Below, one piece after another: positions 17,830 through 62,020 of a stretch of DNA of 64,000 nucleotides (the stretch's first letter is position 1; the number at the start of each line of letters is the position of its first letter). This DNA is from Bisporella sp. PMI_857 (lineage: Eukaryota > Ascomycota > Leotiomycetes > Helotiales > Helotiaceae), in assembly GCA_021307315.1 (NCBI GenBank), contig JAJSPD010000041.1:310001-374000 (forward strand), written 5' to 3'. The notes under the pieces are model-generated. The model did not search any database, had not been told where the DNA came from, and saw only the letters and a program-made list of their open reading frames with translations. The translations under genes and the position numbers were made by a program.

Positions 17830-19678
17830 ACGTATTCCACAAGCGAGCGGTCCACCCAAGTGAGCGGTCCACCTTAGCTATACCTAGCCACTTTAAATAC
17901 ATATATTTCTACAACGCCTTGAGGAATTTAATTCTAATTAAAATTAATTAATCTACAATGTCTTGAGGACCTAGGGAACATGTTGTAATGCGATATCCTG
18001 GCTCGCGGCAGCGTCCACATCGCCTTTGACGTCCCGCAGTCGCATGTGAACTATTACCACTTTGACGCATATCCTCCAAAATTTGGGTATTAATGTCCGA
18101 TTGATCAATTAAATTTAGGCCATCTTGAACTGTAAGAGACCCTCGCTGCTGAATTCGCTTTTTTTGGCGATGTTTTCGCTGTGTTACAAGTTCGTTAGCC
18201 TTGTGAAGAGCAGCATTTTCTGCCTGAAGAATCGCGAGCTGATGAGCCATTTTGTGCGCGCCCTTGAGGACCTGATCAACTGCTGTATTGATGGCTGTAG
18301 GAGAGCTGTTTTGATGGCGTGCAATTTTAACTTTAATTAGCTCCGTTTGCGAGGTTAACTCAAGAGAGTTGCTTGGTGTTTTCGGCTCCCAGGGAACGTC
18401 TTCTGCGATAGGGGGTGTTGGAGTCCTGAATTGAATATCAAGTTTTGAAATTACAGCCTCTGGATCGTACGGAACGAGCCCTGCACCTCGAAAGCCTCCT
18501 TGCATATTGCTTTTAGTAAAAGAGGCTTCAAATGCTACTCGAAATGCTGGTAGGAACTCAAGTTTAGTAATGTGGTTAATGCCGCTCCGGATCAAGTCCT
18601 CAATCTGGCCGCCGTACGCCTTTTTAAGAGGCGCAAAGCAGCCTACATCAAGTGGCTGAAGGAAATGAGACGCATGTGGAGGCATACAGAGTGTAATAAT
18701 ATTGTTTTCTTTGCAGAAATCCTGGAATTGAAGCGAGTTGTGGCTCTCGTGGCCATCAATGACAAGGAGACGATATGTGCCCTTTGTACGCCTCTTTGTG
18801 TGCTTCTCAAAGTGCTGAAGCCATTCAAAACCAAGCTCATTTGTAGTCCAGCCGTTTTCGCTTACGCTGAGAACCCAATCACCTGGTATTTCTTCGCTAT
18901 ACCATGCTGAGAGATGGTATTGTCCGGCGAAGATTACGAAAGGTGGAACGGCCCAGCCTTGCGCGTTGATTCCCTGGATCACTGTAACCCATTCACGATT
19001 TCCTGGCTGTACCATTTTAGGTCGATAGCGTCGCTCTGAGGCCGTAATAACCTTTGCCGTGGAAGCGATGCCCATCATAAAGCCTGTTTCGTCGAAATTA
19101 AAGATGTCGTCTTCGTGGATACCGTACTTAGCGATAGTATTCTGTACGAGTCTAAACCACTTCCGGATAACCTTTGGATCTTCGTTCTTGGCTCTCTGGT
19201 AGTCGTACTTGCGATTGAATCGTGTTTTAAGCTCTGGAGAGCGCTTGACAAAGTTCCCTGCCCAATTCTTGCCAACCTTGCCTCCACTGCGAGCCCGGAG
19301 AAGGTTATTGGCCATATTTTCCACGGCACTTAATCGGGGCGAAAACCCTCGTGAATCTAGGTCTAGGATATGTTGAATAATAACTGATTCTTCTAGCTCT
19401 GTAAGCTTTCTCGAATTGGGCGTGCAATCGCGTCGCGGACGGATTCCGGCGCGTCGTCGTCGGAGCGTCGTTCGCACCGCGTCGTACGTCTTTATTGCGC
19501 TTCGTTCGCTTTGAAATTGGCCGTGATTGATAGCATTTATAGCAAAAGATATTTTACCCTCTTTATGAGGTAATTGAAGAGAAGATGGTTGTTGCATTGT
19601 ATATTAAAGATTATAGGTCGCGCTTTTTGGTTGGGGTGGACCGCTCGCTTGGGTGGACCGCTCGCTTGTGGAATACGT
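17830..19678 (-). mobile_element. Complete pogo/Fot-type transposon with 44-bp TIRs and TA duplication
   Basis: 1849 bp flanked by TA (17828-17829 and 19679-19680). TIRs at 17830-17873 and 19635-19678 begin ACGTATTCCACAAGCGAG and match at 43 of 44 positions by eye. Each TIR contains two copies of GAGCGGTCCACC. It carries one intact transposase and sits inside a hAT gene at the centre of the large palindrome. All parts needed for mobility are present. Confidence 0.93.
17948..19597 (-). CDS. pogo/Fot-type DDE transposase
   Basis: Intact 549-codon frame from ATG 19597. N-terminal psq-type helix-turn-helix (residues ~10-50, AINHGQFQSERSAIKTYD), then a CENP-B/Tc5-type DNA-binding domain (~65-135, with GGKVGKNWAGNFVKRSPELK). 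The DDE_1 catalytic core has its three Asp in FNFDETGF (~170), LLVIDGHESH (~280) and LQPLDVGCF (~320), i.e. a DDD triad. The C-terminal region has a short Leu-rich coiled-coil-like segment and a final Cys cluster, CGRCREPGYRITTC. The domain order and length match the fungal Fot1/pogo family. The enzyme excises and reinserts the element at TA. With intact frame and near-perfect TIRs it is a candidate active, autonomous element, and a possible source of mobilisation for related copies. Confidence 0.95.
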   Translation of the reverse strand: MQQPSSLQLPHKEGKISFAINAINHGQFQSERSAIKTYDAVRTTLRRRRAGIRPRRDCTPNSRKLTELEESVIIQHILDLDSRGFSPRLSAVENMANNLLRARSGGKVGKNWAGNFVKRSPELKTRFNRKYDYQRAKNEDPKVIRKWFRLVQNTIAKYGIHEDDIFNFDETGFMMGIASTAKVITASERRYRPKMVQPGNREWVTVIQGINAQGWAVPPFVIFAGQYHLSAWYSEEIPGDWVLSVSENGWTTNELGFEWLQHFEKHTKRRTKGTYRLLVIDGHESHNSLQFQDFCKENNIITLCMPPHASHFLQPLDVGCFAPLKKAYGGQIEDLIRSGINHITKLEFLPAFRVAFEASFTKSNMQGGFRGAGLVPYDPEAVISKLDIQFRTPTPPIAEDVPWEPKTPSNSLELTSQTELIKVKIARHQNSSPTAINTAVDQVLKGAHKMAHQLAILQAENAALHKANELVTQRKHRQKKRIQQRGSLTVQDGLNLIDQSDINTQILEDMRQSGNSSHATAGRQRRCGRCREPGYRITTCSLGPQDIVD

Positions 19679-20826: not shown

Positions 20827-21365
20827 CACATGGAGCCAGAGTCTCCATCAAGCCGTTACCTAAAAAAGTAGTAACTATACAATGCAACCGCTGCTTAATG
20901 TGGCACAACGAGCGGACTTGCGTTAGAGCCCCCCGCTGCCGCTTATGCGGCTCTACTAAACACACCGAAAAAGATCACACATCATGCTCCCCAGCAGCTC
21001 ACGCTTGCCCTTCACGCTGCATCCACTGCCACGGCCCTCACCCGGCCGACTTCACAGAATGCTTACTACGGCCTAAGCCGGGCCAAGCTGGCCCTACTAA
21101 ACAACAAAAAGCCCAAATCCGACAATCGTGCTCAGCTGCCTATTTAAGGATCAAAACGGCCAACTGCCCTCCCTCTACGCAACAGGACACGCTAGACTCT
21201 ATAGAAGTAGATATTCCTGAAGCACCAACAAGACCCAACACTCCCCCTACCAGACAATCCCTCACACTCCCTCCTACTACAAGCCAAGGCTCACGGTTCT
21301 CAATACTCTCGCCTTCCGAGCAACTCCTGCCCGGAAAGCGCCTCTTTGCAAGCACAGCGCCGTAA
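20827..21365 (+). CDS. LINE ORF1, 5'-truncated (right copy)
   Basis: The same truncated ORF1 as on the left arm: open from the TAA-repeat junction, first ATG at 20898, stop TAA at 21363-21365. It shows two Cys/His knuckle regions and a Pro/Thr-rich tail. The 155 residues from the ATG are identical to the left copy. The stop overlaps the ORF2 start codon as TAATG. No promoter-containing 5' UTR is present, so expression would depend on flanking sequence such as the LTR tip at 20337-20459, which points in the same direction and contains a TATATAA box. That read-through promoter idea is inference. Confidence 0.83.
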
Positions 21366-24300
21366 TGAGTAGTAGAAGCCTTCCTTCTTCTCTTTCGATT
21401 CTTTCAATAAACGTAGGGAAAGGCACTAGCTCGCACGAGCTAGCTCTCTCTACAGCTTTCAACTCCTCAATCGACGTTCTTCTGGTTCAAGAACCCCGCA
21501 TTTTTACCGACCTAGACAGACGAATTACAAAAACACACCCTTCTTTTGAATGCTTTTCCCCAGTCGACACTTTCGACCATACTCCTCGCGTCATGACATA
21601 CGTACGCAAAGGGGTAGGCTTACGCGCTACACAAATACGTCCACTTCCGCAAAACGACGATATAGCCAACGACCTGCTCTTCTTGACAATCCAAACGCCA
21701 ACAAACCAACCGCTTATGATCATAAATGTGTACAATGCCCCCATAGGGAACGTATACAGAAGCCAAGGCGCGGCCACCGCTCTGATGTCTCTGCCGGCAT
21801 CTACATTCCCTTCGGCTACTTTTATAGCAGGCGACTTCAACTTGCACCACCTGCTTTGGCAACCATCGTATCAAGGCCCGTCTGACTCGTTTGCAGACCC
21901 TTTTGTCTCGTGGACCGAGCTACACGACTTTTCCTTCATTTCACAAATCGACAAACCTACACACCAACTAGGGAATGTGCTCGACCTCGCCTTCGCTTCT
22001 CCCGGCCTCCGCCGAATAGGGGTAAACACAAGCGTTAAAAGAAAACTCCAAATCGGTTCAGACCACTTACCTTTACTAACTAACATCTGGTGGGGCACTA
22101 GAACGCGTGAACGGCCAACACATTTACGCTTTGCTACGCTTGAAAAAGACACTTTTCTTTCTCTTCTTAAATACAACCTTGAGAATACTCCCCTATTTCC
22201 AAGCAGTCCTACAGACACTTTTCTCGACAGCTACGCTGTCAACATCGTCGAAGCAATTCAAAATGCTTATCAAGGCTCAGCCAAGCGCGCACTTCCACAT
22301 AACAAAGGACAGCCCTGGTGGAACGACGCTTGCGCTACAGCAGTACAGGCATTCCGTGCGGCCCGAAGAGAACACTACGGGTTCGCAGCAAGCGAAGCAA
22401 AGAAAGAGCTACGCAAAGCAACCCGGCAAGCTAAAGTGTCTTTCTACAAGAAAAAGCTTGACGAAGCAGCTACAAGCAGAGACGTTTTCAGCATTGCAAA
22501 GTGGCACAAATCCACGGGCTCATTCCGCTCTCCTCCCTTAAAAGACCCTCTTCGCCCACGTGCTCCTCCGGCAACTACTCCAGAAGCAAAACGAGACATA
22601 TTCGCACGAAACCTTCTACAAAACACTGCTGAAGCAGGTGACATTCCACTTACAGCCCCCGCCGTCCCTGTAACGTCACTCCCGTTTCCTGACCTTACCG
22701 AACAAGAAATAGAAAAGTCAATACTCGGAGCAGGCAATACCGCGCCTGGCAAAGACGAAATCCCTACACCACTCTTACGAGTAGGGTGGCCGCTGCTCAA
22801 AAGCCATATCAGTCAACTATTCCAAGCGTGCATACATGCCGGCCATCACCCAATTTGTTTCCGCACTGCTATATTAGCAATGATTAGCAAACCCAAAAAA
22901 GCAGATCGGGCTTCTCCCCGGTCATACAGACCTATCGCTCTACTCTCGGTGCTCGGAAAAGGCCTGGAAAGATTAATAGCTAAAAGGATGTCATGGATCG
23001 CCATAAAATACCAGGTAGTTGCAGCACAACAATTCGGCGCGCTCCCTTTGCGGTCGTCGGTCGACCTTACAACATGCCTTACACACGACATCGAAACAGC
23101 GCTGAATCAGGGCTTGACAGCGTCGATGCTTACGCTCGACGTCAAAGGCGCTTTCGACGCTGTCCTACCAGGAAGGCTTGTTAAAAGGCTACGCGAACAA
23201 GGCTGGCCCAACTACTTGGTAAGATGGGTTGCATCGTTCGCTACAAAGCGTAAAGTATGCATTCGGCTCGACGGCGAAATCGGAGACGAAATAGAAATCG
23301 TGTGCGGGCTACCTCAGGGCTCTCCAGTTTCTGGCATTCTATTTATGCTTCACATTTCTCCTTTATTTTTCCTAAGACTATTTCAAGGAGGATTCGGCTA
23401 CGCCGACGACGCCGCTACTTACAAAATCTCACCCTCTCTGAGAGAAAACACATACGCTCTCTCAGCTACCCTGGCACAAGCCCTAGAATGGGGACGCTCG
23501 GAAGGAATTACGTTCGACCCTGAAAAATCAGAACTTCTACACTTCTCCCGCAGGCACGCGGACAAAAACAGATCACCATCGGTAACAGCTGGATCCCTCG
23601 TAGTATCTGAAAGCACTGAACGCCCTTACTTAAAATGGCTTGGAGTGCTTTTCGACAGGAAACTAACTTTCAAATACCACGCACTTGCTCAAGCAACTAA
23701 AGCTCTGAAAACAGCTCACGCTTTCTCGTCACTCGGCAACACGCTTCGAGGAGTCTCCCCTATGCTTACACGACAAGCCGTAACAGCGTGCGTCCTGCCG
23801 GTAGCGTACTTCGCAGCAGAAAAATGGTGGCCAGGCCGAAAAAGACAAACACACAACGGCTACACTTCGAACCGAATAGATGGCCTACTCACAAAGCTTG
23901 AAACTACTACTCGAGCTGCAGCCAAAGCTATCCTCCCGGTCTTCAAAACAACCCCGTACCCAATTCTATACCGAGAATCAGGATTGGCACCCCCCGAACT
24001 TAAGCTCGACGAAATAGCTAGACGCGCAACATTCCGCATACGCCGGCTCGACCCTCAGCACCCGCTACGCACACGAGCCGAAGCCGTCCGAGGGCCACTG
24101 ATCCCGACTCGTCGTAGCCGCGTCCCAACTCGTTTCGCAATAAGATACCTGTCGCTACCTGCTTCAGAACAGCTCGACATGATAGCTCTACCACCTTGGT
24201 TCCCGGCCGAAAGCCCCGCAGATATAGAGAAACGAATAGGCGCTCCCGACCCGACGCACACAAAAGAACAACGGGCCGCCACCTTTTCGCACTTTATCCA

Positions 24301-25204
24301 CCAAATTCCAGCAAACGACATAGTAGTGTACACGGACGGCTCAAAACTCCAAAACGGCAACGCAGGAGCAGGCTACGCTCTAGTACTGCCCGAAGCTACA
24401 GTCAAAGAAGCTTTCGCTCTCGGCCCCAGCGCAGAAATCTTCGATGCGGAAGCTATTGCTGCGCTACTCGGTGCACAAGCAGCTCTTCGTCACCCGTCGA
24501 ACGGACTAGCTAAAAACGCCTGGATCTGCCTCGACAACCTCGAAGTCGCAAAACGCTTGCTGTCTCCTTCACTTACCACTTCACAGCCTATTTTCAATTC
24601 TTTTATTAAAGCTAGAGAAGACTGGCAGAAAAGAGACAACGCTACACCAGCCGGCGACATACACATCCGGTGGGTGCCGGGCCACGCAAACATTCCCGGA
24701 AACGACCTAGCAGATGCAGAAGCCCGTAAAGGCTCCTCCCAGCTCCCTAACGCTCCTTATCCATTGTCGTTTGCTTCACTAAAGAAATGGCACGTACAGC
24801 AAGCTTCAAAAGCACGAGCAGAGTGGTGGGCGACTTCCGCACATGAAAACTACCAACTGTTATCAATTACTACTGCTCCCGTCCCTCCACAAGAGCTTCG
24901 GCTCCCTAGAAAAGAGCTTGGCCGCATTATAGCAGCCAGGTCAAACCACGGCGACTTCAAAGACTACCACGAAAGGTTCGACCATACAGACGCACAGCTT
25001 CATTGCTCCTGCGGCCTCCCCAAAACTCCTATTCACTTCCTTTTCTGCAGAATCGCCCGCAGGCGCTGCAACCGACCCCGAGGGCCTCCTTCTACCCTAA
25101 TCGCACAACTACTTGGCACCAGCGAAGGTATCGCCACGCTAACAGAATGGTGGCGTAAAACCGCTTTTTTTGAGGACATCTGTCCATACCGCAAAGCCAG
25201 CTAG
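21365..25204 (+). CDS. LINE (Tad1/I-like) ORF2 polyprotein: endonuclease, reverse transcriptase, RNase H (right copy)
   Basis: Intact 1279-codon frame with the same domain order as the left copy: APE endonuclease, reverse transcriptase with GYADDAA, RNase H with VVYTDGSKL and a C-terminal CSCGLPKTPIHFLFC Cys/His motif. Up to about residue 600 the protein is identical to the left copy. Beyond that there are scattered substitutions, for example in the RT region (EIVCGLPQG against EIECGLPQG) and the RNase H region. None affects a catalytic residue. The frame has survived in both copies despite >5 kb of near-identical inverted duplication, the kind of target RIP normally attacks. Followed by a 3' UTR and an ATAATAATAATAATAA tail near 25510-25525. 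Confidence 0.95.
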   Translation: MSSRSLPSSLSILSINVGKGTSSHELALSTAFNSSIDVLLVQEPRIFTDLDRRITKTHPSFECFSPVDTFDHTPRVMTYVRKGVGLRATQIRPLPQNDDIANDLLFLTIQTPTNQPLMIINVYNAPIGNVYRSQGAATALMSLPASTFPSATFIAGDFNLHHLLWQPSYQGPSDSFADPFVSWTELHDFSFISQIDKPTHQLGNVLDLAFASPGLRRIGVNTSVKRKLQIGSDHLPLLTNIWWGTRTRERPTHLRFATLEKDTFLSLLKYNLENTPLFPSSPTDTFLDSYAVNIVEAIQNAYQGSAKRALPHNKGQPWWNDACATAVQAFRAARREHYGFAASEAKKELRKATRQAKVSFYKKKLDEAATSRDVFSIAKWHKSTGSFRSPPLKDPLRPRAPPATTPEAKRDIFARNLLQNTAEAGDIPLTAPAVPVTSLPFPDLTEQEIEKSILGAGNTAPGKDEIPTPLLRVGWPLLKSHISQLFQACIHAGHHPICFRTAILAMISKPKKADRASPRSYRPIALLSVLGKGLERLIAKRMSWIAIKYQVVAAQQFGALPLRSSVDLTTCLTHDIETALNQGLTASMLTLDVKGAFDAVLPGRLVKRLREQGWPNYLVRWVASFATKRKVCIRLDGEIGDEIEIVCGLPQGSPVSGILFMLHISPLFFLRLFQGGFGYADDAATYKISPSLRENTYALSATLAQALEWGRSEGITFDPEKSELLHFSRRHADKNRSPSVTAGSLVVSESTERPYLKWLGVLFDRKLTFKYHALAQATKALKTAHAFSSLGNTLRGVSPMLTRQAVTACVLPVAYFAAEKWWPGRKRQTHNGYTSNRIDGLLTKLETTTRAAAKAILPVFKTTPYPILYRESGLAPPELKLDEIARRATFRIRRLDPQHPLRTRAEAVRGPLIPTRRSRVPTRFAIRYLSLPASEQLDMIALPPWFPAESPADIEKRIGAPDPTHTKEQRAATFSHFIHQIPANDIVVYTDGSKLQNGNAGAGYALVLPEATVKEAFALGPSAEIFDAEAIAALLGAQAALRHPSNGLAKNAWICLDNLEVAKRLLSPSLTTSQPIFNSFIKAREDWQKRDNATPAGDIHIRWVPGHANIPGNDLADAEARKGSSQLPNAPYPLSFASLKKWHVQQASKARAEWWATSAHENYQLLSITTAPVPPQELRLPRKELGRIIAARSNHGDFKDYHERFDHTDAQLHCSCGLPKTPIHFLFCRIARRRCNRPRGPPSTLIAQLLGTSEGIATLTEWWRKTAFFEDICPYRKAS

Positions 25205-25849: not shown

Positions 25850-28800
25850 TCAAGAATCAGGTGAGCTCTCCCACAGACTAATCGTCCGTTGTTCTAGCTC
25901 CTCAAGTCGGGCCAGCTCAACCTGGAGATCCGGGTGAGGGGCAAATGAAACGTCTTGAAGTGTGATCGGTTCTCGCAACCAGACCCCCGATAATGATTTG
26001 ACCCTGCCAAGCTAGACGTTGATCGAGGTCTATTTGCCATGCTGGTCAACGCCGCGTTGCTTACCAAAGAGGAGATCTAGAATGAGGCTGATGAACGTAC
26101 TACCTTGGCTCTTATAATCGGTGAAGGCGAATCCAAGCGTCAACGGGACCTGATGTCGGTAAAACGACAGGCCGGGTATGCTCGGGATCTGCCCTCTCAT
26201 CTGTACCGGGAAGACAGGAACCAGACCGTTGGAAATATCAGAGAATGATAGGTTGTGGTCATGTGCCGGTCGAACGAGGACACATAGCGGAGGAACTGTA
26301 CACAGAATGAACTGATCATCAAGTTCCATCCACGAGCCTATCGCCGTCGTTATGTTTTTGTTAGCAAATCCGACCTGCAAGAACGATAACTGTTTATGTA
26401 TGTACCTTGCACGTCTGTATCCAATATTACTTCTTCGACAGTCCCTCTCATCCCATTGACTAGACCGGCATACGTATTCGTATTCTGCTGGAGCATAATA
26501 GGCATACCCTTTGTAAAGGCAAAGAAGCCTGGACCTTTCAGGTATCCCTGCTCGCCGACCTGGTATATCATCCTGAGCAGCGTAGAAGGATCCAAATTCG
26601 TTCCTGTAGGTGCATCGTGTCTGGCGGGAAAAAGATAGATTTTCTGACCTCGTTTTTTGGCGAACGCTTGGAGATGTATTAGGTTAGCTTCTTCACGTAC
26701 ACGATTGAGTCGTATGATGGCCCATTCTGGTGGCGTCTCCCCATTCGCAACCCTGTTTTCAATCGTACATGAATTCAAGGTAGCGACATCGTCCTCCGTC
26801 AAAGTGGCGGAGCGTGCTCTCTGGAGTAAATCCTGAAATGCTACATCTTCGGCCTGACGCATCTGCTCCGTCAGGAATACCACCTGATTAAATTGACCCC
26901 AGATAGATTTCCCTGACCGCAGGACAGCAATATCGTTACTCGTCTGGCTCCATATAGCGTGACCGCGGACCGGCCTAAACTGATTGAAATCTCCTAGGAA
27001 TATGACGATGGGTAGGCCACCAAAAACCGTATCAGATGCTCGATCCAAGTCCCAGATGGCATTACACCGCTCGTTGATCTGGACCAGGTTCTCCAGACTA
27101 ACCATACTAATCTCGTCCAGGATGAGGATCTTCTTATGAGAGAGTCTCGACCTCGTCGCTTGACGTACAGGTTGGTTCCCATTGTTCCCAAAACCAAGAG
27201 CGGAATGGTAAGTAGCGCCGCCGACATTCGCAGCGGCGGCCCCAGTCGAGGCGGTGAGGAGAACGTCATCATGTTTTCGCATTATTGATAGACCAAGCAT
27301 AAAAGCCTTGATCAGGTGGGTCTTGCCAACTCCACCGACACCGCCAAGATAAAGCAAGAACTGGTCACGAACAGAATTGATCCGAACAGGGTGCAGAATG
27401 CGGAGAAAGAGAGCTCTAATGATCATCCCCTGCTTTTGGTTTAGAGGGTATTGGCCAGTAATCAGAGCAAGCAAATTCTCGAGGGACGGATCAGCTTGAA
27501 ACGAAGCCTGTAGATATCGTATAGAAGAAGCCATGGATTCTGTGCTGTAACCGAGGACGGGAACCAGAGCAGCTTCAGGGTCACTCCTCTCGAGTTCAGA
27601 GGAGATATTGGCATCGGAGTCGTCGCCAAAACCTGATTGTTCTTGATCTTTAAAGGCCTTTAACTCTCTGGCCCAAGTCTTAACTTGAGAGCTAGGCGTA
27701 AACTTGGCACCATGCGATGGAGGGTTCCGAGAAAACCGCAACGAAGAGAGGCTACTAGTCATAATACCTGGGAAAGCTAAAGCAGCCTGAAGTAGATTGC
27801 TCTCGGTTGGTTGGAGTGTCGCAAAATTGAAGTCTACATTAGTTTCCTCGTCATCATCGTTATAGATCCCATGGTCTATAGTTTCGAGATAGTCATCAAA
27901 CTCTATCCCACGCTCCTTTCTGTCCTGGTCGGCTGCTTCTTTGCTCCGCCGAAGGAGCATGATGTTCTCGGATAGCTGGACCAGATACGGAGGGAGAGAA
28001 GGGGCAAGGAAGTTCCATAGCCACGTGTTTTTGTATTGTGCAGCACGGAGTGGTACGATGTGGTTACCTCGGAGGCCGCGGAGGCTATTCCATGGGTAGA
28101 ATAGACCGAGTAGAACCTCATGGATCTCGTCTTGTGTCCATAGGGTGGTATCTAGAACATCATTATCCCGGTCCGTCATAGAAGTAAAACTGCCACACAA
28201 AGAGGGGGTCTTTAACGACTTTAGCGAACTGACAGAGACCTGGATATGGGTTGCATGTAGAGGGTGAGTAGGATTGAAAGGAAAACAGTAGGTTCGATCT
28301 TTGGCGCCTTTCAACGTCTGTACGAAGATTTGGGAGGCATATTCATAAAAGCATAGATGAGCCAATCTGGTGCCTCGATGTTCGTAGTTTTCGTAGATAG
28401 ACGGGCGGCGAATACGACCATCAAAGTTGGTATACTGATTTGCGGTCTCTGATATCTCCTCAGAGCTAGACTCGCCTAATAATAAACTGTTCAGAACCTT
28501 GCGGAAGTGTATCTTGACCCAGTAAAAATTGATCGTGACCGATTTGTCGCTCTCTGGAATATAGCCCGACGGTTGGCCAAGCAGGAAGTGGGCCACGGCC
28601 GGAGCGCCAACCTCCACATCCCTCGTAAAGCGATTATAGGCCTTCAGAGCGAATTTCGACATATCAAGCGGCTCTGGAGCAGGCAAGTCAGCATTCTCAG
28701 CGGCCGCCGCTTCGGCCGTCTCTTGGGCCTTCTTTAAGACCGCGGCAGCTAGTACAAGCTGACCCCGGTCAACCTGAGCTTTAGTCGCATAGTTCGTCAT

Positions 28801-31800
28801 GTAATAGACGGCGGCGAGCACTTTGGGAGACGACGGGGTGAAGCTAACGTCGTGGTTGCATCTTATCGCAGACGCAATGACGGGATTGTACTTGTTCACA
28901 TACTGGTGATTCCTCTCCATCCGTATATAGCCCTCTTCCGTAACCATAGATTCTGGAACCAGCGGTCTTGGGAAGAGAAACCTGCATATCTGCGACGGCG
29001 ACTGCTTCTGGGTCTGTGGACGTTGCAGGGTGTAATCAGCGTCGGTCGCCATTCCTTCAATCTGAACAATCGAAACAGAATTTGCTTTGAAACCTGATCT
29101 TCGGCCGCTCTTCTGGTATTTGGTACACGTCTTGCTATGAGTGTGTATCTGCACTCGCGCTGCCACGTTATTTGAGTCAATATCTAAAGCCTCTTGGAAT
29201 TTGGCCGCGGTCATATCTCCCTGTATGGTAAAAGCCGATGTGCCCGGAGCCTCCCATTGAAATTGCTGGCCCTCACTTATATCCACCGTCTCTCTCACTA
29301 TTGAACGGATATAAGCGATGACTTGGTCCTTGAATTCGGGGTCGGTCTTTAGTCTCTTATATAAATTCGCGGCACCAAAATTCCCCGCGAGCCAGGCAAA
29401 TCCATGAAGGTGGAGCATCATCCGTGCGGTGGATTCAACTATTCCAAAGTGAGAAGAGACGGTGCCGAAGATACCAGGTTCTCTAGAAAGCGTCTTAAAG
29501 AAGCTGCCGAAGAACGAATTCACGACGACATGAAAGAACTGGGCGACGAGACTTTGATTCTTGATCGTGAGTTGTAAGAGTGTGGACCTAATACCTGGCT
29601 CATCTAGCGAAACCTCTTCACCAGCGAGTCTGATCACGAAGATATTACCAATATCCTTGGGATTGAGCGTGAACCAGATAAGTGGAAGCCCAAAACGGCC
29701 GATCTTGCCGAAGATCAGGTTTCTGAACCTCATCTTCTCTCCGAACGATTCTGGATTAAAAGACGATATGACTCTCATGTTAGTAATCAGACTGTGGATA
29801 GCAGGACTTGAGATCTTCTTCCCGTCCTTGAATTCCTCCGCCGCCTGTTGCAGGTCATCGGCTGATAGTCTAGCAAGCTCCTGCGTAGCTTTAGCCCAAT
29901 ACCCGTTTTTAACCTGGACGTAATTCCCAAAAGACGCTTGTCGAATCAGGATTAAATCGTAGATATAAAACATAAAGGTATGGTGTTGAGAGAAGCTGTA
30001 AATATTAGAAAGACATGACACGAATTGTGGAACACCTACAGTAACGAATGGTGTAGCATTGCATATTTGGCAAAGGCTTTAAGAGATACCTCCTCTGGCC
30101 GGTTTCCATTCGCATCGCCTAAATGGCCACCAATGCCAAACGGAAACAGAGTGGGGAATGCTGCCGTAAAATAGTCGGCGTCAGTAAAGGCATTTATGGG
30201 CGGCAGTTCCCCTGTCGTCTTGTAAGATATATGCGGCGGCCGAGAATTATCGTTGAATCTCCTCCTCTCATCATCATAGTCATCGGTAGTAAATTCCTCG
30301 TCTAGGATTAGGTCGTCCGAATCCAGCTCTTGAAGAATGGCTTGTAGGCTTGCCAAAGTAGCAGGAGTAGAGTGAAGATCTTGACCATGAAAATCGGAGA
30401 AATAAGACCGGCTAAGAATGCTGCCAGGCTCAGCGTCCTCTACTTCTGCATCCAACTCGTTCTCAAAAGCCCCACCCTGTAACGATGTAGCGTAGCCTTC
30501 CCGCTCATCTTCTACCGGAGGGTCTGTCGAACCGGGCTCAGGTCCCAAAGTAATAAAGGCATCTCTAATCTCTTGAGGAATATGATGATCGGGCCAAGAG
30601 TCCAAAATAGAATAATCTATGGTCACCGATTTATAGACGAGATTATTAGCGCAGAGCCATAACAAAGCATCCAAGACCTTCGCTTTATCAACGGAGCAGA
30701 AACGAGCCAGGTTCTCTTCCGAAGGAGGAGTTCCCCGATCCCAGCTAACAGTAATTGTCGTGTGATCCCGTAATCTCTTAGCTGGTAAGATTTTCAAAAG
30801 ACTGCTTGGGTCCTGTCTCACGGCAACCGAATGGCCACGACTTCCCCTATAACTCATACCATTCTTGGCACCCGACGTAAGTTTCAGGAATATGCTAATA
30901 ACGTGAGCCCGTGCAATGAAGGCCTCTTCGACGGTATTGAGATTCCTCAAAACTTCTGGATACTCTTGACAGAATAGACAATTAACAAAATTACCAGCCG
31001 AAAGCAGCGGGATGGCCCGTTTCGCGATGGCCGAGTTACAGGGAGTACACAGGCTGACCATGTTGTCCTTGACGGCGCAACAGTCAGGAGCTGTGTTTGT
31101 CGCTCGGAGAAAGTATTGTAGGCTGTCATCTTGAAGACCGACACTTATCATCTCATCCTCTTGGAACAATCCTCCACAAAGTCCACATGGTACACGTCTC
31201 GCTGCATCGGAAATGGCCTTCTCGTAGCCTTTCATACACGACATCTGAATCGATGGAGTAATAATCTCCTCGGGGAAAGTAGTCGAAGCCTGCCTCATGT
31301 ACTGATACTCCTGATCAAGGAAAGACGGGATAGGACTATCGTAGGCAACGATCCGTTCTTGTGTAGGTGGCCTCTGCTGGATCCTTTGAGCCTGTGTATC
31401 AGCCTCGTGGCATAAACGTGCACGCATGGCCGATTCATCGCGAGCCTGCCTGTCTCTGCGCCGCTGTTCGTCTTGCTGATAAGCAAGCATTCTCTTCCGC
31501 TCTAGGTCACTAAGCATTACTAGCCTTCGTTCTTCCATCTCCTGCTCCTCCCTAAGCTTCGCTAGCCTGCTGCCCTCGGCCTTTCTCGCCTCAACAGCTG
31601 CCTTATAGCGTAAGAGAGCCCCCATCCCCAACTCATCCCGGACCTGCCTTTCCCTACGACGCTGTTGATCCCGCTGACGTTCTAGCTCCTGTTTACGCTC
31701 CTCCTGGGCTAAGCGAGCCTGGCGCAAGCGAGCCTGGCGTAACTGTTCATCCCGTTGGCGCCTCTGCTCGAGTCTGCGCTGACGTTGTTCTTGGTCGCGA

Positions 31801-32150
31801 AGTCGCTCAGTTCTCTGCCGTTCTTGCACCGCAAGCTCGAGGGTCCGAATCTTCTCCCTCTGTAGCTCAATTCGCGCCTGTAGTGTCCCATGGTTACTAG
31901 ACATTGATTGGTTAGAACTAGAGGCTTGGAAAGTATAAGAAGGATATGGGAGGTCTATTTGGGTTGGTATTATCAGCTGGCCCACGTTCCTGTCTGGGAC
32001 AGAACCATTCTCTTCCGTAGGGGCCCGGGGAGAAGGCATAGTAGGTAGACAAGCAGTGCTAGGAGTAAGTGTATCAACACGAAAAATAAGTAGAGCAAAA
32101 AGCTGTAGGGAAAGGAGAATCGAACAGTTTAACAAAGAAAAACCTGGCAC
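25850..32150 (-). pseudogene. Helitron Rep/helicase (HUH endonuclease plus PIF1 helicase), nearly intact, two terminal-exon stops
   Basis: Exon 1 (32150-30040) holds a charged Arg/Gln/Glu coiled coil (residues ~80-250) and a DUF6570-like Cys region (CGLCGGLFQED, CTPCNSAIAKRAIPLLSAG, VNCLFCQEYP), ending near YFTAAFPTLFPFG. A 44-bp intron (29996-30039, GTAGGT...TTACAG) leads into the Helitron-like N domain. That part has the HUH motif LHLHGFAW, Rep tyrosines YYMTNYATK and a PIF1-type helicase (Walker A GGVGGVGKTH, Walker B ILDEISM). A second very short intron or indel (about 26375-26412) precedes the last helicase motif, FTDYKSQG. In the terminal segment TAG occurs at 26030-26032 and 26012-26014, at expected Trp and Gln positions; the frame then runs to TGA at 25850. 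Otherwise intact over ~2100 codons. Rolling-circle transposition is the family role; this copy would make a C-terminally shortened protein. Confidence 0.88.
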
Positions 32151-54034: not shown

Positions 54035-55028
54035 ATGGCATCAGAACTTGAAAACCTTCGGAAAGAGCTTGAGAATGCACAACGCCGCGAGCAAGAAGCA
54101 CAAAGACGCGAGGTAGAAGAGCGACGACACCGTGAGGAAGAGCAGCGACTCCGTGAAGAAGCACAAAGACGCGAGGCAGACGAGCGACGACGCCGTGAAG
54201 AAGAGCAGCGACTCCGTGAAGAAGAGCAGCGACTCCGCAAAGAAGAACGACAATCATACGAGAGAAGAACAGGAAAATCAACCCTGCCTGAGTTCCTCGA
54301 TGCATGCCATACCCACCTCTACCTCGGCCTCACCATACAGCCTGACAGTACACAGTCTACGCAGGGTAATGCTGCCAATGCTGGGAATAAGCCGCGCCCC
54401 GATCGGATCTTGCCATGGCCAAATTTCCACGACCAGCAGGCAGGAATATGGGATGCTTTGATGGAGTCGGAATTTGTGCTAGAACGACATTTCACCTCTT
54501 TACACACGCTCGAAGAATTAGGAGAGGTAGTTCGGCGGCGCCAGATGGGGTCTGAGTTAGATCTCAACAGCTTTGCTCGCTTCACGGTCGAAGACTCGGT
54601 TGCCCAGATCGTTGAGCGCCTGTACGAAGACACCGTATTGCGATCCCGCTTTGGTCTCAGAGGTTCTATCAGGTTCGAAAATCATAGCAGCACTTTTAGT
54701 CCTGATCGAGCAGCAGAAGGAATTTAATCACTTAGTATCTCTGCAGGCCCACGATGCTCTAAACGCCTCCAAACTAGTGCGGGCAGTAATCAGACTGTCG
54801 CTACATCATCAATGCACCCATCCCGTCCGCGGGCAGACCAGTTTTGTGTTTACAACATATCGGGTAGAGATGGGGAGATGGAGCATCGCGTCGCAGCGTT
54901 GACAATAGAATATAAAGCGCCGCATAAATTGACCTTGGCTCATATCAATGAGGGGCTCGGAGAGATGGATTTGAACGAGGTGGTGGAGCAATGCGACAAC
55001 GAGAGCGTGGCAGTCCGCTGCCGTCGTC

Positions 55029-55045
55029 TTACCTCAGTTTCCTCA
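55029..55045. repeat. Left TIR of the DUF6589/RecQ element
   Basis: Ten terminal bases TTACCTCAGT match the right end exactly; the next seven match with one gap and one change. Confidence 0.85.
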
Positions 55046-55119
55046 GACCATAAGATTTTCGCTCACGTGGACGCTGCGCTAATCCTATTTGAGAATGCTC
55101 GCGAATCTATGGTCTGAGC
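55042..55119. repeat. Subterminal hairpin
   Basis: CTCAGACCATA (55042-55052) pairs with TATGGTCTGAG (55109-55119). The stem extends imperfectly with AGATTTTCGC against GCGAATC. Confidence 0.75.
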
Positions 55120-55240
55120 AGGGAATTAGTCCCCACCATATTAGGACGCGACTTTTTGAATTGTAATAGATAACTTTACCACCACTTCGAATACAGTCAT
55201 AGTAATTGCAAGAAATTTGAAACCGAACATCTTGAACAAG

Positions 55241-57798
55241 ATGCCGTCTTCCAAATCTCCAAATTCGCGGAGGCGTCACGCGCGGCGTGCCCCAACTACC
55301 CCGCACCTACCCACCCTTCCTCGACGCGTCCAACAGCCCCAAAAGCAGACCGAGTATATCAGTGGCATGAAAAAGGGGGATAGGGTGTATCACGTGCTAA
55401 AAGATTTGCGTGACAAGCACCGGTGGTCTTTGAAAGACTTCATATTGCACTTGGTCACAGAGGAGTCGACTATAAAGGGCTCCCATACTTGTGCGATGCA
55501 CACAAAGAACTTGTCTTCTGCCATATATCAACAAGAAGCGGTGGCCAAGCAGTTGTCAAAGGTTTCGGGTGACATCTGGACCACAACCAACTCACAGCAA
55601 GTCTCACGGATTCGATCCGAGCTCGGCAAAGTGGGCAAGCCAGAGGTCGGATTAGGGAAGTTCGACCCTGACCACGAGGTTGGTACATTGGATATACCCG
55701 CTTTGGCTGGACGGATACAGAAAGCAGCGCCAGAGCTCTTCAAACTGCTTGCAGATCTTATGGTACAGCAACATAGCAGCGGTCATATCACGTCGACCGA
55801 CTCCCAAGGCAGCTTGGTGATGATTTGCTCAATTCTAGCTCGTGCTTATGCCCCGAGGAACTGCAATAACTTTCCTGTGTTGCTAGGTTTGCATCTGCAT
55901 TCAATGGGAGTTAAACGCCGTACTTTGGAAGTGCTTTCCGGTCTTGGTGTTTCTGCAAGCTATTGGGAAATCAATAAGCAGTCTGGGAATGTTGCTGAGA
56001 ATGGAACAGTACAGTCGCTCTTCTTGCGTATTTCCCCCTTTCTCTATAAACAACACTGTATTTTTTAATGTACCTGAATATAGCTAACTTATACATACAG
56101 AAACTGATCGCGAGTTTAGCACAGACCCACCGGAATGAGCTTGTTGTCTGCTGGGACAATTTTGATTACAATCAAGGCGTTCGGCATCAAACCCTGGACG
56201 AGCCATCAAAACATGTATCTGCTACCACTGGGAAGCTGTGTATTGGCCGTGGTATACCTGCCGGAGGTCTTCAAAGGTCAATGTTACATCTGGACGTGAA
56301 GCTTACTTCTCTCGATATTTGGAACGCAAATGGCAACAAAGAAGATGAAATACTTTACAATTGTCAACGTTATTGGATTGCTGAAGCCATTCGTTACACC
56401 CATCGTACTGCTGTAGAAAGCGTGTTCGATCGGGACAATTCTATGTTATGGCCAGAGCTTCCATCGGTTGAACGTCTTCCTGTGCATCAAACACGCAATT
56501 ACACACTCAGCCCTATTCTGGAGAATGAAGGCACGATTAGCGGTACATACAAGGTCATTGATGAGATATTTACAGGTCAACTGAACTTGGATCGTGAGAA
56601 GGAGTTTAATGGGCCGCTTCGGCTAGTGTTTGGGGATCAGAAGACGGTTTCTTTGGTCCGTACTGTACAGAAAGAACGTCAAGAAGCTGGCCATCCATAT
56701 GACCAGTATAAGTGGCTATTGCCTGTACCAGGTCTCTTTCACTGGCGGACCAACTACATTGATATGATCCATGATACATACTCTGGATCTGAGTCTGCAG
56801 CAACAGAATCAACACTTTACCACAGCAAGAATGTATTGGGATGTATTCAAGGCCACAAAAGTCCGTTCCATCACAAAGAAGAAGTAGCAACACGAGCTTT
56901 TGATGCAAGGGTGACTGCTTGTTTTTACCGATCCCTTCCAGCCCAAGTTCGCCCTGCAGACTACAGCCAAGTCGACAACTACATCCACAAACTCAGTTGC
57001 GTCACGTTCATGAAAAAGGTTGATGAGATCCGCGAATATATCTTCCTTGCCAAAGAACAGTCAGACCCTGTTGATGAGGAGTTTTTAGCGCATGCTAGGT
57101 TCTTACAACAGATGGAAACATACAAGACGCTCAAGCTGGCTATCAAGCTTGGTGATGTTGGTCTGATCAAAAGGGTACTAGCAAGGTGTTGTTTGTTGTT
57201 TCATGGATCTGGCCAGTCCAAGTATGCTTTCCTGTCATTATACATGACCTGGCTTACTCAAACTGGTGCTGCCGACAAGGTATTACAAGATGCTATTCTT
57301 GCCAATGGGCTAGTTAACCTCCGTGGTGCAAAAGACAGCCACTTTGAGATGGACCGGCTGAATGAACTCCTCAACCTTGAATTTAGGACATTGGTAGCTT
57401 TACGGAGAGCTTCCACGATGGAAATCAGTGAACTCTTCCGCCGAGCTGCTTTGACTGCCAGTTACTGTACCGGGTTGAAGGTCGATTTCGAAGCTACTTT
57501 TGGTGAGTACAGCAACGGAAGACACCAAGTCAAAGATGCTAGTATAGAAGTCCGCAATCTAGCGTTCCAGATCTGGAATTCAGATTCTATCATCAAACAG
57601 CCACACGGACGAAGCTCGCCATTCAAACCCAGAGACATCTTACAAAAGGGGGTTGCAAAATTAAATATAGGGGTTGATAGGTTCAACAAAAGTGTTGTGG
57701 AAGGGCGGTGGGAAGAAGATCAAGATCTGGTGAACGCAACATCAACCCCTATTGCAGTGTTAGATAATACTGTCAATCTGGACGACGATAGTGAGTAA
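55241..57798 (+). CDS. DUF6589-like protein, candidate transposase of the element
   Basis: ATG at 55241 (the upstream open codons lack ATG). Exon 1 55241-56008. The intron 56009-56100 has a GTACAG donor, AGCTAACTT branch and CATACAG acceptor, joining in phase 0. Exon 2 56101 to TAA 57798. Product 821 aa. The N-terminus is basic (RRRHARRAP, residues ~10-25). The middle shows VVCWDNFDYNQGVRHQ (~272-287), HVSATTGKL and GGLQRSMLHLDVK, then LRLVFGDQKTVSLVRT (~429-444) and PVPGLFHWRTNYIDMIHDTY (~464-483). These match my memory of fungal DUF6589 proteins. Asp in WDNFD and in FGDQ sit at strand ends, as in RNase-H-fold DDE enzymes, so I infer a transposase; the third acidic residue cannot be assigned by eye. 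The last 26 bases overlap the convergent helicase gene. Intact. Confidence 0.8.
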
Positions 57799-60139
57799 GA
57801 AGAGAACACTTACTACTATCTTTACTCCGTTTTAAGCGCTTCGATGCACGATTATGTACGTTGCCAGATATATCCCCAAGGGGTTGGCGACTTGGCCCTC
57901 GCATAACTGGTGCATTTGCAGAGACCTGTAACGGGGACAAGGAAAGTGGATGTTGTAGAGGTGTCGATCGCTGAACAGGAGTTGATTGGCTCATGGACAT
58001 TGGGGTAGTAACAGGAGCCCAAATCTCGGGGATGGTTTGATTACCACGAAGGCGTGGATGAGGTGTTGCGGCTGCTTCTCTAGTAGTTGCGATGTCAAGC
58101 TCTTTCCAAAGGGCTTCGCCATACTCCTCAAGATAATGCCATGGCCCAAGAACTGTGCGGAGGCAAGTAAGGTTGATGGCAGCAGTTTGATCTTTCACTA
58201 TTCGCGTTAATTGATCTTTGGGAAGAAAGCAGTCGGCTATGGGCCGGAATGATGGATTTGGAAAGACTTTCGGGAGCTGACGTTCACACCAAGCTGTCAA
58301 GTGTGCAAGCATTCTTTTGTGTCTGGCTGTCAGGCTAGGGCCACGTTCATGATACAAGTAGTGTTTGTCCAAAGGGCCAAGGCCAAGTTCGTTGGGGTTG
58401 CAATTGCTACAACAGCGCCGTATGTCTGTTGAGAATTCTGGCGGCTCATCGAATTCTTGCAAGAATCGTTGTCTGAGACAGCCCTCATCATTTGCAAGCA
58501 AATACCAGAAGTCTGCTAACTTGCTCCGACGCTCTCCGTCTGCCATCCTCGTATTTGTCTCATTCCCAGCTTCCTCAATGTCACTACTGTCCTCGCTATC
58601 ACTGGCTCCATCCAGTGCTTGCGCTTTCCAACTTGATTGGCGATTCCTTTGTTGACTTGCTTGACTGGCCGAGGAGGGTTTTCGCATACCCTTCACCCAG
58701 TGTTCTAGCAGTATAATCATCTCACTGCTACCACCGTCTCTCCCTGCCCTGCCACCTCGTTGCCATGGAATAGCAGGCTCGTCGTCCTTTGGTAATCCAT
58801 TCAGTACAACACGTCGAACATCGGGCAAGTTGACACCTATCCCAATTGCTTCTGTAGCTAACAGTATGCGTATCCTAGAACCTGGCTGTTGAAACTCTGT
58901 AATGATTGCTTCTTTGTCTGCTTTAGCCAACTCGCGATGAAAGACCACGACTACCTCACTACTCTGTGCCTCGGAATACAGGTGGTTGTCGCTCATTTGC
59001 AGCCACATCCTTAGCTGATCTTTGGTAGAATATGCGACCTTCTTGGAGTCGAAAAAAACCACTGTTTTGGGCACGAGATGCATACAAGACGGAGTCTTAT
59101 TATTTGCTCGAACAGCATCGTCCAGCAAAAAGCGTAAGGCGGAAGCACTCTTCTTTTGGTTCTTGGGTATTATGCCCATCCGCAATGCTATCTCTGGTCG
59201 ATCGACAGAGGTCCGTATAACAGTAACATTCTTGTCAAATCCGACGGCTCTCTTGACTTCGTCTAGCGCCTGAGTATTCAACGTGGCCGAGCACGCGAAC
59301 CAAGGGATATGACTTCCAAACAAGCTGCGTAGCACTCCTAGCCGTGCGTATGCAGTGCGAAAGCTTCTTCCCCATTGAGATACCAAATGAGCTTCATCAA
59401 GGACCACCAAACCAAGCTGCTCTTTGAACAATGGATTCGTGGCTGTAGTATGAAACTTAGGGCCAGTTGCCAGCTCAGGACTGATCAGAAGGTGTGTGTA
59501 TCGGCCATTCTTTACATCTGCAAGAATCTTTTTATTGATTGTGTCTGCATTCAAAAAACATGGCCTACCACCAATATTGGTGATGTATTCAGCCTGCTCT
59601 TGTCCGATTCGATCTAACGGCAATACAACAACAGTCATGGTTTTCTTCAGAAGAACTGATACCGCTTGTAGTATCATACTCTTTCCGAATGAAGTCTTTG
59701 CAATGAGGATGAGGTCTTTCCGTTGATATATGAGCTGCCATAAAGCATCACGCTGGCCTTCCCGCGGAGGATAAGGATATATGTGTTGAATTGCCTCCTC
59801 AATTGCATTCTTTTGGGCCAGTTCATCCTCATGCCTAGCGCCAGCAATAATCTCTTGAGCATGAGCTATTTTGGCGGCCACAACAGCTTGCGTCTCGACG
59901 GGCGTCCTCCCAGCTCCATCTGTCAACCCCACCTCAGCATTTGTAGTTGGTGTTATTGCTACCCCACTTTGTTCAACTGACTCTGGGATGGTGGTGCCAT
60001 CCGTAGACGCGGTGTCTCCAGAGAAGTTGTCAAGGAAGCCCGTAATAGACAGTTGTGTACTCGACTGGTCAACTGCATCGATTGTAGTTCGCCGGGAGAG
60101 ATTTGTTAGAATCCCTCTTTTGTATGTAGGCCGTGGCAT
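57773..60139 (-). CDS. RecQ-like DEAH helicase carried by the transposon
   Basis: Intact 788 codons from ATG 60139, no intron. Helicase motifs in order: YPPREGQRDA (motif 0, ~123-132), AKTSFGKS (I, 147-154), VVLDEAHLVSQWG (II, 245-257), FACSATLN (III, ~281-288), ILLATEAIGIGVNLPDV (V, ~425-441) and QRGGRAGRDG (VI, 460-469). A RecQ-style zinc region follows, with Cys554 and a CCSNC cluster at 576-580. No HRDC domain is seen. The N-terminal 120 residues are low-complexity and include QLSITGFLDNF, a weak PCNA-peptide look-alike. The C-terminus is Ser/Pro-rich with a basic RASKRLKRSK, a possible nuclear signal. RecQ enzymes unwind DNA 3' to 5' in the nucleus. Here it probably processes transposition intermediates or the gap left by excision. 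It resembles fungal mobile or telomere-linked RecQ genes more than Sgs1/BLM. Confidence 0.93.
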   Translation of the reverse strand: MPRPTYKRGILTNLSRRTTIDAVDQSSTQLSITGFLDNFSGDTASTDGTTIPESVEQSGVAITPTTNAEVGLTDGAGRTPVETQAVVAAKIAHAQEIIAGARHEDELAQKNAIEEAIQHIYPYPPREGQRDALWQLIYQRKDLILIAKTSFGKSMILQAVSVLLKKTMTVVVLPLDRIGQEQAEYITNIGGRPCFLNADTINKKILADVKNGRYTHLLISPELATGPKFHTTATNPLFKEQLGLVVLDEAHLVSQWGRSFRTAYARLGVLRSLFGSHIPWFACSATLNTQALDEVKRAVGFDKNVTVIRTSVDRPEIALRMGIIPKNQKKSASALRFLLDDAVRANNKTPSCMHLVPKTVVFFDSKKVAYSTKDQLRMWLQMSDNHLYSEAQSSEVVVVFHRELAKADKEAIITEFQQPGSRIRILLATEAIGIGVNLPDVRRVVLNGLPKDDEPAIPWQRGGRAGRDGGSSEMIILLEHWVKGMRKPSSASQASQQRNRQSSWKAQALDGASDSEDSSDIEEAGNETNTRMADGERRSKLADFWYLLANDEGCLRQRFLQEFDEPPEFSTDIRRCCSNCNPNELGLGPLDKHYLYHERGPSLTARHKRMLAHLTAWCERQLPKVFPNPSFRPIADCFLPKDQLTRIVKDQTAAINLTCLRTVLGPWHYLEEYGEALWKELDIATTREAAATPHPRLRGNQTIPEIWAPVTTPMSMSQSTPVQRSTPLQHPLSLSPLQVSANAPVMRGPSRQPLGDISGNVHNRASKRLKRSKDSSKCSLLTHYRRPD

Positions 60140-60584
60140 GATGAAACGCGGCGATAACGTGGACTTGAGGATTAAAATCGATATACATCAATCTAATAGG
60201 CCCCTGGATGATATACACCAAGTTAGCATTGATTTCATCCCATGATTGGTGCTTTAGAAGGCGACGGCCATTTGGAGAGGTGGAGAGACGCAGTCGCTCG
60301 GTACACATAACTACCTCAAATCTGGATCAATTCTTAAAACGAGAGCAGGTTTATAAACAGGACTTCAAGGCGCACAAAATGGTGGAGCTGGATTTTTGAT
60401 AAACGCGTTGTGGTGTTGAGAATTGACATCGTGTAAATATCGCATTCGCGTCCTTTTGGTGTTGTTTACAGCAAAACCTCGCTTCCTAATATTGCGCTCA
60501 CCAAATTAACAACTCAGACGTTCGCCATAAAAGCTGAGGTAAGCATGCCTCAAAGTAGACTAGCGTTAATAATAAGCGAACGTA

Positions 60585-60600
60585 TGAGGGACTGAGGTAA
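60585..60600. repeat. Right TIR of the DUF6589/RecQ element
   Basis: TGAGGGACTGAGGTAA, complementary to the left end. CTGAGGTAA recurs at 60534-60542, preceded at a similar distance by an ACGTTCGC/GCGAACGT motif in opposite orientation. Confidence 0.85.
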
Positions 60601-62020
60601 CCGTCGTCTGGTCGCCGCGGTGATTACGCAAGGCTTCTCGTATATGGTCAAGGCTGGTTTGGAATATGGTCAAATTTATACGGAAGAAGCAACGATCTTT
60701 CTGCGCATCCCAGACGATCCATCAACGGTATATTATGCGCTTTCGGTTCCTAAAGGAGATGTGGGTTTGTCAACGGGGTGGGATGAGGACAGCGAGCATT
60801 CGAATCGATTGCATCTGACTGCAGTTGGCCAGGCTGTTGCATTTACGCTCCGTGCACTGCGAACGCTTCCGCGAGGCGCACAATGGACCAAGAACGCTCT
60901 CGGTCAACTTAAGACGTGGGCTATCATAGTTAAGGATGCTGAGGAGGCCATCGCGATGGATGAAGTGCCGTCCTCGGAATATCAGCTATCCCTCAATGTT
61001 GTGGGAGACGTCATCCGGTTTCCAATAGGTTTCCGACTTCGTAAAAAGACACAGAGTTCAGAAGCTTGTCCTTCAGCTACATCGAGCTCTAGTAATGACG
61101 AGGAAGATCCAGATCATGGCCCAAATACCCCAAGCAGACGAGAGCTATTATCAAGTTCCGGCCGCTCTCAATCTCGGTCGACCGGACTGAGCTCTCGTGG
61201 TTCTCGAGTCTCGAAAAAGGAGACGGTGTATAATGGTACCGGTCGCAGGAGGACTCTCGGCGCCTTTTGTACTTTAAATTGTCTCCTGGGCTTGGTAACG
61301 GATGGCCAGCTTGACCGATCATGTCCAAATGTTAAGAAACATGGGGCAGACTCGCACAAACTCAACAAATTAACCTTTATAGGAGCTATCCGTAAAATGT
61401 TGGAGGATCAGCTTGACTGTTGCCAGGAAATGAATGTCCATGGAGCTAGAGGGGCATTATTTAAGATTCAATTGCTTCGATACCATTATATATTTGTCGC
61501 GAAAGGCACCGGAGTTGAGTGTGCGGAAGATTTGAGACATGAATCTATAGTCTACCAGCGTCTCCAACCTATTCAAGGAAAATATATTCCGGTTCATCTG
61601 GGAGAAACGACAGTTCCAGGACCCTTATACTATGCCGGAGCTGTGGGTATCGTCCGGATGATGTTCTTCAGTTTTGCGGGATATCAGATACAATCACCTA
61701 TCTCTAAGGATGTCATAAAGCAAGCGATTCAAGGTCTACAGGCTATACATGAGCTCGGGATATTGCAGAAGGATCCTGCAACAAGGAATGTACTTGTGTA
61801 TCCAGGTGAATCAAGAGTTGCTTGGATAGACTTTGAGCGAGCAGGATTCTTACTTTCTCGAAAGGTCCTCGGTGTGTTATCTCCAAACAGAAAACGGAAG
61901 CTTTGGCCGCCTCAAGAGGGTGGAAGAAAGATACAGATGGACTTTGAAACGGGCACTAGAGCAACCCAGTCAGAGATAAATCAAGCCAGAGCAGAGCTGA
62001 TGAAGCTTATATATGGCTAA

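Follow-up and report, generated by a model that had tools for sequence, protein, structure and literature searches.

A probable DNA transposon pairing a DUF6589 protein with a RecQ-family helicase in the fungus Bisporella sp. PMI_857

Why should a gene for a protein of the DUF6589 family and a gene for a RecQ-family helicase lie tail to tail between inverted repeats, at positions 55029-60600 of a 64,000-nucleotide stretch of the Bisporella sp. PMI_857 genome (the window; contig JAJSPD010000041.1)? This segment is a complete DNA transposon that was probably active in the recent past. We consider it very likely that it is an autonomous cut-and-paste element, in which the DUF6589 protein acts as a DDE transposase and the RecQ protein serves it as a dedicated partner that selection maintains.

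The element is bounded by terminal inverted repeats (TTACCTCAGT) and by an 8-bp duplication of the target site, and it lies within a host gene:

54812-55028, plus strand: interrupted host gene, left part; the frame resumes at 60609 onward, as in paralogs
55021-55028: left target site duplication CCGTCGTC, an exact match to 60601-60608
55029-60600: whole transposon, 5572 bp, with termini common to four full copies
55029-55046, plus strand: left terminal inverted repeat TTACCTCAGTTTCCTCAG with two CTCAG boxes, a layout similar in families 2 and 3 (below)
60531-60543, minus strand: internal second copy of the end motif, CTTACCTCAGCTT on the minus strand, an inverted repeat
60585-60600, minus strand: right terminal inverted repeat TTACCTCAGTCCCTCA (reverse complement at the 60600 end)
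60601-60608: right target site duplication CCGTCGTC, an exact match to 55021-55028
60609-62020, plus strand: interrupted host gene, right part, from its open reading frame, the frame across the joined flanks and paralogs

The ends and the perfect duplication that an initial annotation of the window had proposed are exact to the base. On the plus strand of the window, the 10-mers at the two ends are each unique, and the 8-mer CCGTCGTC is present twice; the reverse complement of the 8-mer occurs once, at 28829. When the flanks are joined without the element and one repeat, a single host frame runs open through the site. With the 203-residue joined reading as query, we found seven uninterrupted paralogs that cross the junction (C249, C48, C168, C268, C36, C221:248402 and C277). 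They are 77-98% identical to the query and all span residues 2-200 of it or more; one broken paralog and several more distant ones were found as well. The open frame and the paralogs spanning the junction thus provide related-empty-site evidence of insertion. Furthermore, since three other full copies share the same end bases and carry different perfect 8-bp duplications, the boundaries do not reflect chance, which the uninterrupted paralogs likewise rule out. The host gene itself (54812-62020) is one of a family of which the genome holds five or more near-identical copies (93-98%), suggesting recent amplification.

Copies were sought in the whole genome (55.6 Mb, 284 contigs). Family 1 has four full copies, namely the window element, an identical one at C221:269690, and those at C112:1516162 and C93:10985, both shorter by a single intron base; their 8-bp duplications are CCGTCGTC, CCCCTGGG, GCAGTTCG and CCCGGGGG. 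Short family 1 derivatives that keep the ends lie on C56 and, two in tandem, on C150, with 8-bp duplications; a derivative on C3 and one of 155 bp on C62 have no target duplication. Both tandem copies at C150:866-3010 (L032) are deleted and one duplication, CACCCCCC, is present three times; the C62 element (C62:11113-11267, L037) is scarcely more than its two ends. Family 2 comprises C277 and C249, which share 99.3% identity over 6.4 kb and have ends TTACCTCAGGCACTCAGG. Neither of these full copies has a duplication; a 685-bp derivative on C9 has an exact one, and C233 one matching at 7/8. Family 3 (C2, C210, C224 and C256; about 10.9 kb, 97.6-99.6% identical in the pairs compared) has ends TTATCTCAG, an 8-bp duplication at C256, and 0.8-kb derivatives with duplications of 8 bp on C36, C228 and C245 and 9 bp on C237; a 990-bp derivative on C252 and a 14-kb end pair on C212 have none. 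At C2, C210 and C224 (L021, L010, L017, L023, L011, L024), three 8-bp duplications are permuted between the 10.9-kb copies, which may reflect assembly misjoins across this repeat or real ectopic exchange. In family 4 (C269) the terminal inverted repeats are 20 bp or longer and the duplication is of 9 bp.

Over the 24 copies with both ends, there are 12 exact 8-bp duplications, two exact 9-bp ones, one at 7/8, three permuted 8-bp ones and six copies with none; the two 9-bp cases among the 14 exact ones are no more than would arise if one further base agreed by chance. The end pattern TGAGN{3,4}CTGAGRTAA has 66 matches in the genome against 6 for its reversal, and 46 of the 66 are accounted for by 23 of the 24 copies with both ends. 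Similar ends recur in the three diverged families 2-4, and the duplications of the other copies are mostly of 8 bp; the initial annotation had suggested looking for both features around other gene pairs.

The element contains the following genes:

55241-56008, plus strand: DUF6589 transposase gene, exon 1, residues 1-256, from the open reading frame and splice enumeration
56009-56100, plus strand: intron, 92 bp, GTACAG...CAG, the best of 10 frame-keeping GT-AG choices
56101-57798, plus strand: DUF6589 transposase gene, exon 2, residues 257-821 and stop, with a predicted RNase H-like core and helical insertion
57773-60139, minus strand: RecQ-family helicase gene, a single open reading frame of 788 amino acids, convergent with the transposase gene

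Both genes are intact, with frames as first described (821 amino acids in two exons, 788 in one), and their 3' ends overlap by 26 bp. An alternative intron in the splice enumeration, 56028-56119, likewise yields 821 amino acids. The homologue P0068 is continuous through the exon junction at about equal spacing, which fits a 92-bp intron; homologues P0002, P0021 and P0051 look like gene models translating through it.

Could the 821-residue protein be the transposase? Its suggested similarity to DUF6589 was borne out (Pfam PF20231, E = 2.6e-63). This was the sole Pfam model above cut-off for the transposase proteins, other matches (E 0.06-0.11) being to unrelated domains. None of the Pfam transposase models for hAT, P, KDZ or MULE matched, those for P and hAT not even at E <= 1. 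The predicted model of the DUF6589 core is RNase H-like (predicted local distance difference test, pLDDT, 85.2; predicted template modelling score, pTM, 0.86), and the nearest solved folds (VIA rows 1-19) are those of the P element, Hermes, ISCth4, RAG1 and Transib, although Foldseek alone was weak (best E 0.023). The prediction supports the earlier proposal of an RNase H-fold transposase, for which three putative catalytic acids can be named:

56155-56157, plus strand: D275 (WDNFD), first acid; D in 20 of 20 covering A1 rows (21 of the 41 rows end short of this position) and in 11 of 11 in A2
56635-56637, plus strand: D435 (GDQKT), second acid; 39 of 41 in A1 (two have N) and 20 of 20 in A2
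57364-57366, plus strand: E678 (DRLNE), third acid; 41 of 41 in A1 and 20 of 20 in A2

D275, D435 and E678 would thus form the triad, as conservation in the alignments suggests. The initial annotation had pointed to D275/D278, D435 and a third acid; D275 and D435 were retained, E678 supplies the third, and D278 was discarded because it is N in family 3. In the full-length fold of homologue P0002 the helical N-terminal region is of low confidence (whole-model mean pLDDT 66.5), and we therefore name no DNA-binding domain. The exon 2 protein gave 15 pattern-matching stretches and zero relatives among viral contigs, and Foldseek found nothing at E <= 0.001 among viral models. PHROGs gave no match, NCBIfam none for exon 2 and one chance match for exon 1, and the DUF6589 profile only one chance match (E 0.71) among solved-structure sequences.

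The 788-residue protein matches PF00270 (DEAD; 4.1e-13), PF00271 (Helicase_C; 3.4e-13) and TIGR00614 (recQ_fam; E = 4.3e-41, below that model's own cut-off), and has a sub-threshold Pfam match to the RecQ zinc-binding domain. Its best solved relatives are RecQ (4tmu), RECQ5 and WRN, with a solved RecQ structure at E = 2.5e-27.

Does this helicase belong with the transposase? In the genome, 16 DUF6589 matches fall into 13 loci, and at 11 of these a RecQ match lies within about 6 kb, in agreement with the linkage within 10 kb that had been put forward as a check. The other two hold DUF6589 fragments that contain stops: a single one on C136, and more than one on C268, close to where the contig ends. 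Twenty RecQ matches fall into 18 loci, 12 with a DUF6589 match within 10 kb, where C93:7699 counts as paired only through the adjoining full family 1 copy. The C256 RecQ locus has a frame-broken DUF6589 beside it, and five of the 18 (C259, C234, C254, C1 and C90) have no DUF6589 match nearby. Cellular RecQs or fragments may account for some of the unpaired loci; the C259 locus has a 96% match to the helicase end of C269. The genes are convergent in families 1-3 and at C10, and on the same strand at C269.

The pair also appears to recur in other genomes. In a public set of 5.8 billion proteins, we compared 114 DUF6589 matches with 78 RecQ matches with sized contigs (the 80 closest of 120 listed, out of 1390 found, minus two without contig size). 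Among these, 15 DUF6589/RecQ pairs come from contigs of exactly equal size and a shared source, an indirect test in which pairing is read from contig size. When the sizes were shifted by 1-60 bases, 0.525 pairs coincided on average and never more than 3, and 38 of the next 40 RecQs, of cellular type, gave no coincident contig. Two of the 15 pairs share a single Penicillium contig of 5 Mb and a third lies on a contig of 295 kb; at such sizes a shared contig is less telling. The locus tags of one pair, from Penicillium sp. DV-2018c, are consecutive (N7461_001047 and 001048). Furthermore, DUF6589 and RecQ pairwise distances are correlated (Mantel r 0.87, 0 of 9999 permutations) over 17 pairs, 14 contig-matched and three from the window's genome; the 14 alone give r 0.73, also with 0 of 9999. 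The ratio of nonsynonymous to synonymous divergence (dN/dS) is 0.27 for RecQ (C249 versus C10) and 0.07 and 0.11 for two pieces of DUF6589 (C277 versus C10), with dS of 0.54-0.58 in all three comparisons. The low dN/dS and similar dS indicate that both genes are under purifying selection and about equally old in the element. Together, these observations support the idea, present in the initial annotation, that the RecQ protein is a dedicated partner.

To which transposons is the element related? Fungal Academs are reported to carry, for example, DEAD/DEAH (PF00270) and recQ_fam domains (PMC6416283), a 'RecQ Helicase in Academ' has been described (PMC3627910), and AcademH is the Academ lineage with a helicase and 9- or 10-bp duplications (PMC10045372), reported from Basidiomycota, Ascomycota and Mucoromycota (PMC10799480). 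A fungal DNA transposon, KolobokH, is likewise described with RecQ (PMC9587614). The initial statement that no named superfamily is known with this combination is therefore doubtful. We lean towards placing the element with fungal Academ/AcademH, whether as a member, as a sister lineage or as a variant, and as one that makes 8-bp duplications. It resembles AcademH as a fungal DDE transposon with a RecQ-type or superfamily 2 helicase; weighing against this placement, its duplications are of 8 bp and not the 9-10 bp reported for AcademH. Given the helicase and the differing duplication length, we describe it as a variant of the helicase Academ kind and as a candidate member of AcademH.

A slightly better than even case can be made that this is simply an ordinary AcademH, in which DUF6589 is the transposase of Academ and a duplication length of 8 bp falls within the variation of the superfamily; the published Academ helicases and the known occurrence in Ascomycota favour this, as do the two 9-bp duplications, although these give no above-chance signal and 12 of the 14 exact duplications are of 8 bp.

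A possible but rather doubtful alternative is that the element represents a distinct DDE superfamily, as yet without a name, whose RecQ has an origin independent of those in Academ and KolobokH. The mostly 8-bp duplications, the TTAYCTCAG ends and the absence of any Pfam match above cut-off other than DUF6589 are in its favour, as is the finding of no mention of DUF6589 in the open-access literature searched, a search outside which most subscription papers fall; RecQ-family helicases in fungal Academs are, however, already published (PMC6416283, PMC3627910). KolobokH shares the RecQ helicase, but the present element has two separate convergent genes. The duplications found here, of 8-9 bp and varied sequence, are also unlike the 4-bp TTAA of KolobokH, which was rejected on that ground. 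The other Academ lineage, AcademX, is described as having a nuclease in place of the helicase and 3-4-bp duplications (PMC10045372). Neither protein of the present element has a nuclease domain in Pfam at E <= 1, and AcademX was set aside on this ground and on duplication length. The AcademX nuclease is XPG; the four XPG_I matches in the window's genome are all on contigs without a DUF6589 locus. The P element and hAT (Hermes) are nearest to the DUF6589 model in fold and make 8-bp duplications as here, but neither matches in Pfam, and to our knowledge neither carries a helicase gene. Helitrons also carry their own helicase; this is PIF1, together with an HUH nuclease, and Helitrons are not known to have terminal inverted repeats or duplications.

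RecQ genes also occur in fungal subtelomeres (PMC7473861, PMC4522978), and those of A. bisporus are reported to lack domains other than the helicase core (PMC7473861); they share that core with the present protein but are described as subtelomeric genes, not as half of a pair bounded by terminal inverted repeats. That the transposase is the sole transposition gene and RecQ a captured passenger, or one with a telomere or host role, is improbable: the subtelomeric genes and the five unpaired genomic loci are consistent with it, but the pair recurs in diverged families and public contigs with correlated divergence, and RecQ is under purifying selection with dS similar to that of the transposase.

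In an autonomous DUF6589-RecQ transposon, which we prefer, the transposase would bind the CTCAG boxes at both ends, excise the element and join it to the target across an 8-bp stagger. RecQ would most likely open or remodel DNA at the ends, or act during gap repair or donor replication.

The window holds other mobile elements. Two near-identical 1279-residue retrotransposon open reading frames lie inverted at 12893-16732 (minus strand) and 21365-25204 (plus strand); the former, the one scanned, has endonuclease, reverse transcriptase and RNase H domains. Between them is a DDE_1 transposase open reading frame (17948-19597), which we take to be of the pogo/Fot1 type. A Helitron-type gene (Helitron_like_N, PIF1) occupies 26350-32039 on the minus strand, with an adjoining DUF6570 protein.

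With this finding, a Pfam family whose function was unknown acquires a specific role that can be tested, as a DDE transposase. It also suggests a cause for the extra RecQ genes of fungi, some of which would be transposon genes selected for transposition, and the near-identical intact transposase-helicase copies offer a practical system for studying the role of RecQ in cut-and-paste transposition. Fungal gene annotation could be cleared of the DUF6589 and transposon RecQ families. More tentatively, and with the balance against it, DUF6589 transposons may be a superfamily in its own right that occurs widely among fungi, marked by ends reading TTAYCTCAG, by duplications of 8 bp and by a RecQ helicase that is obligatory, evolves together with the transposase and takes part in cut-and-paste transposition; if so, many fungal 'DUF6589' and orphan 'RecQ' gene models would be the two halves of one mobile element.
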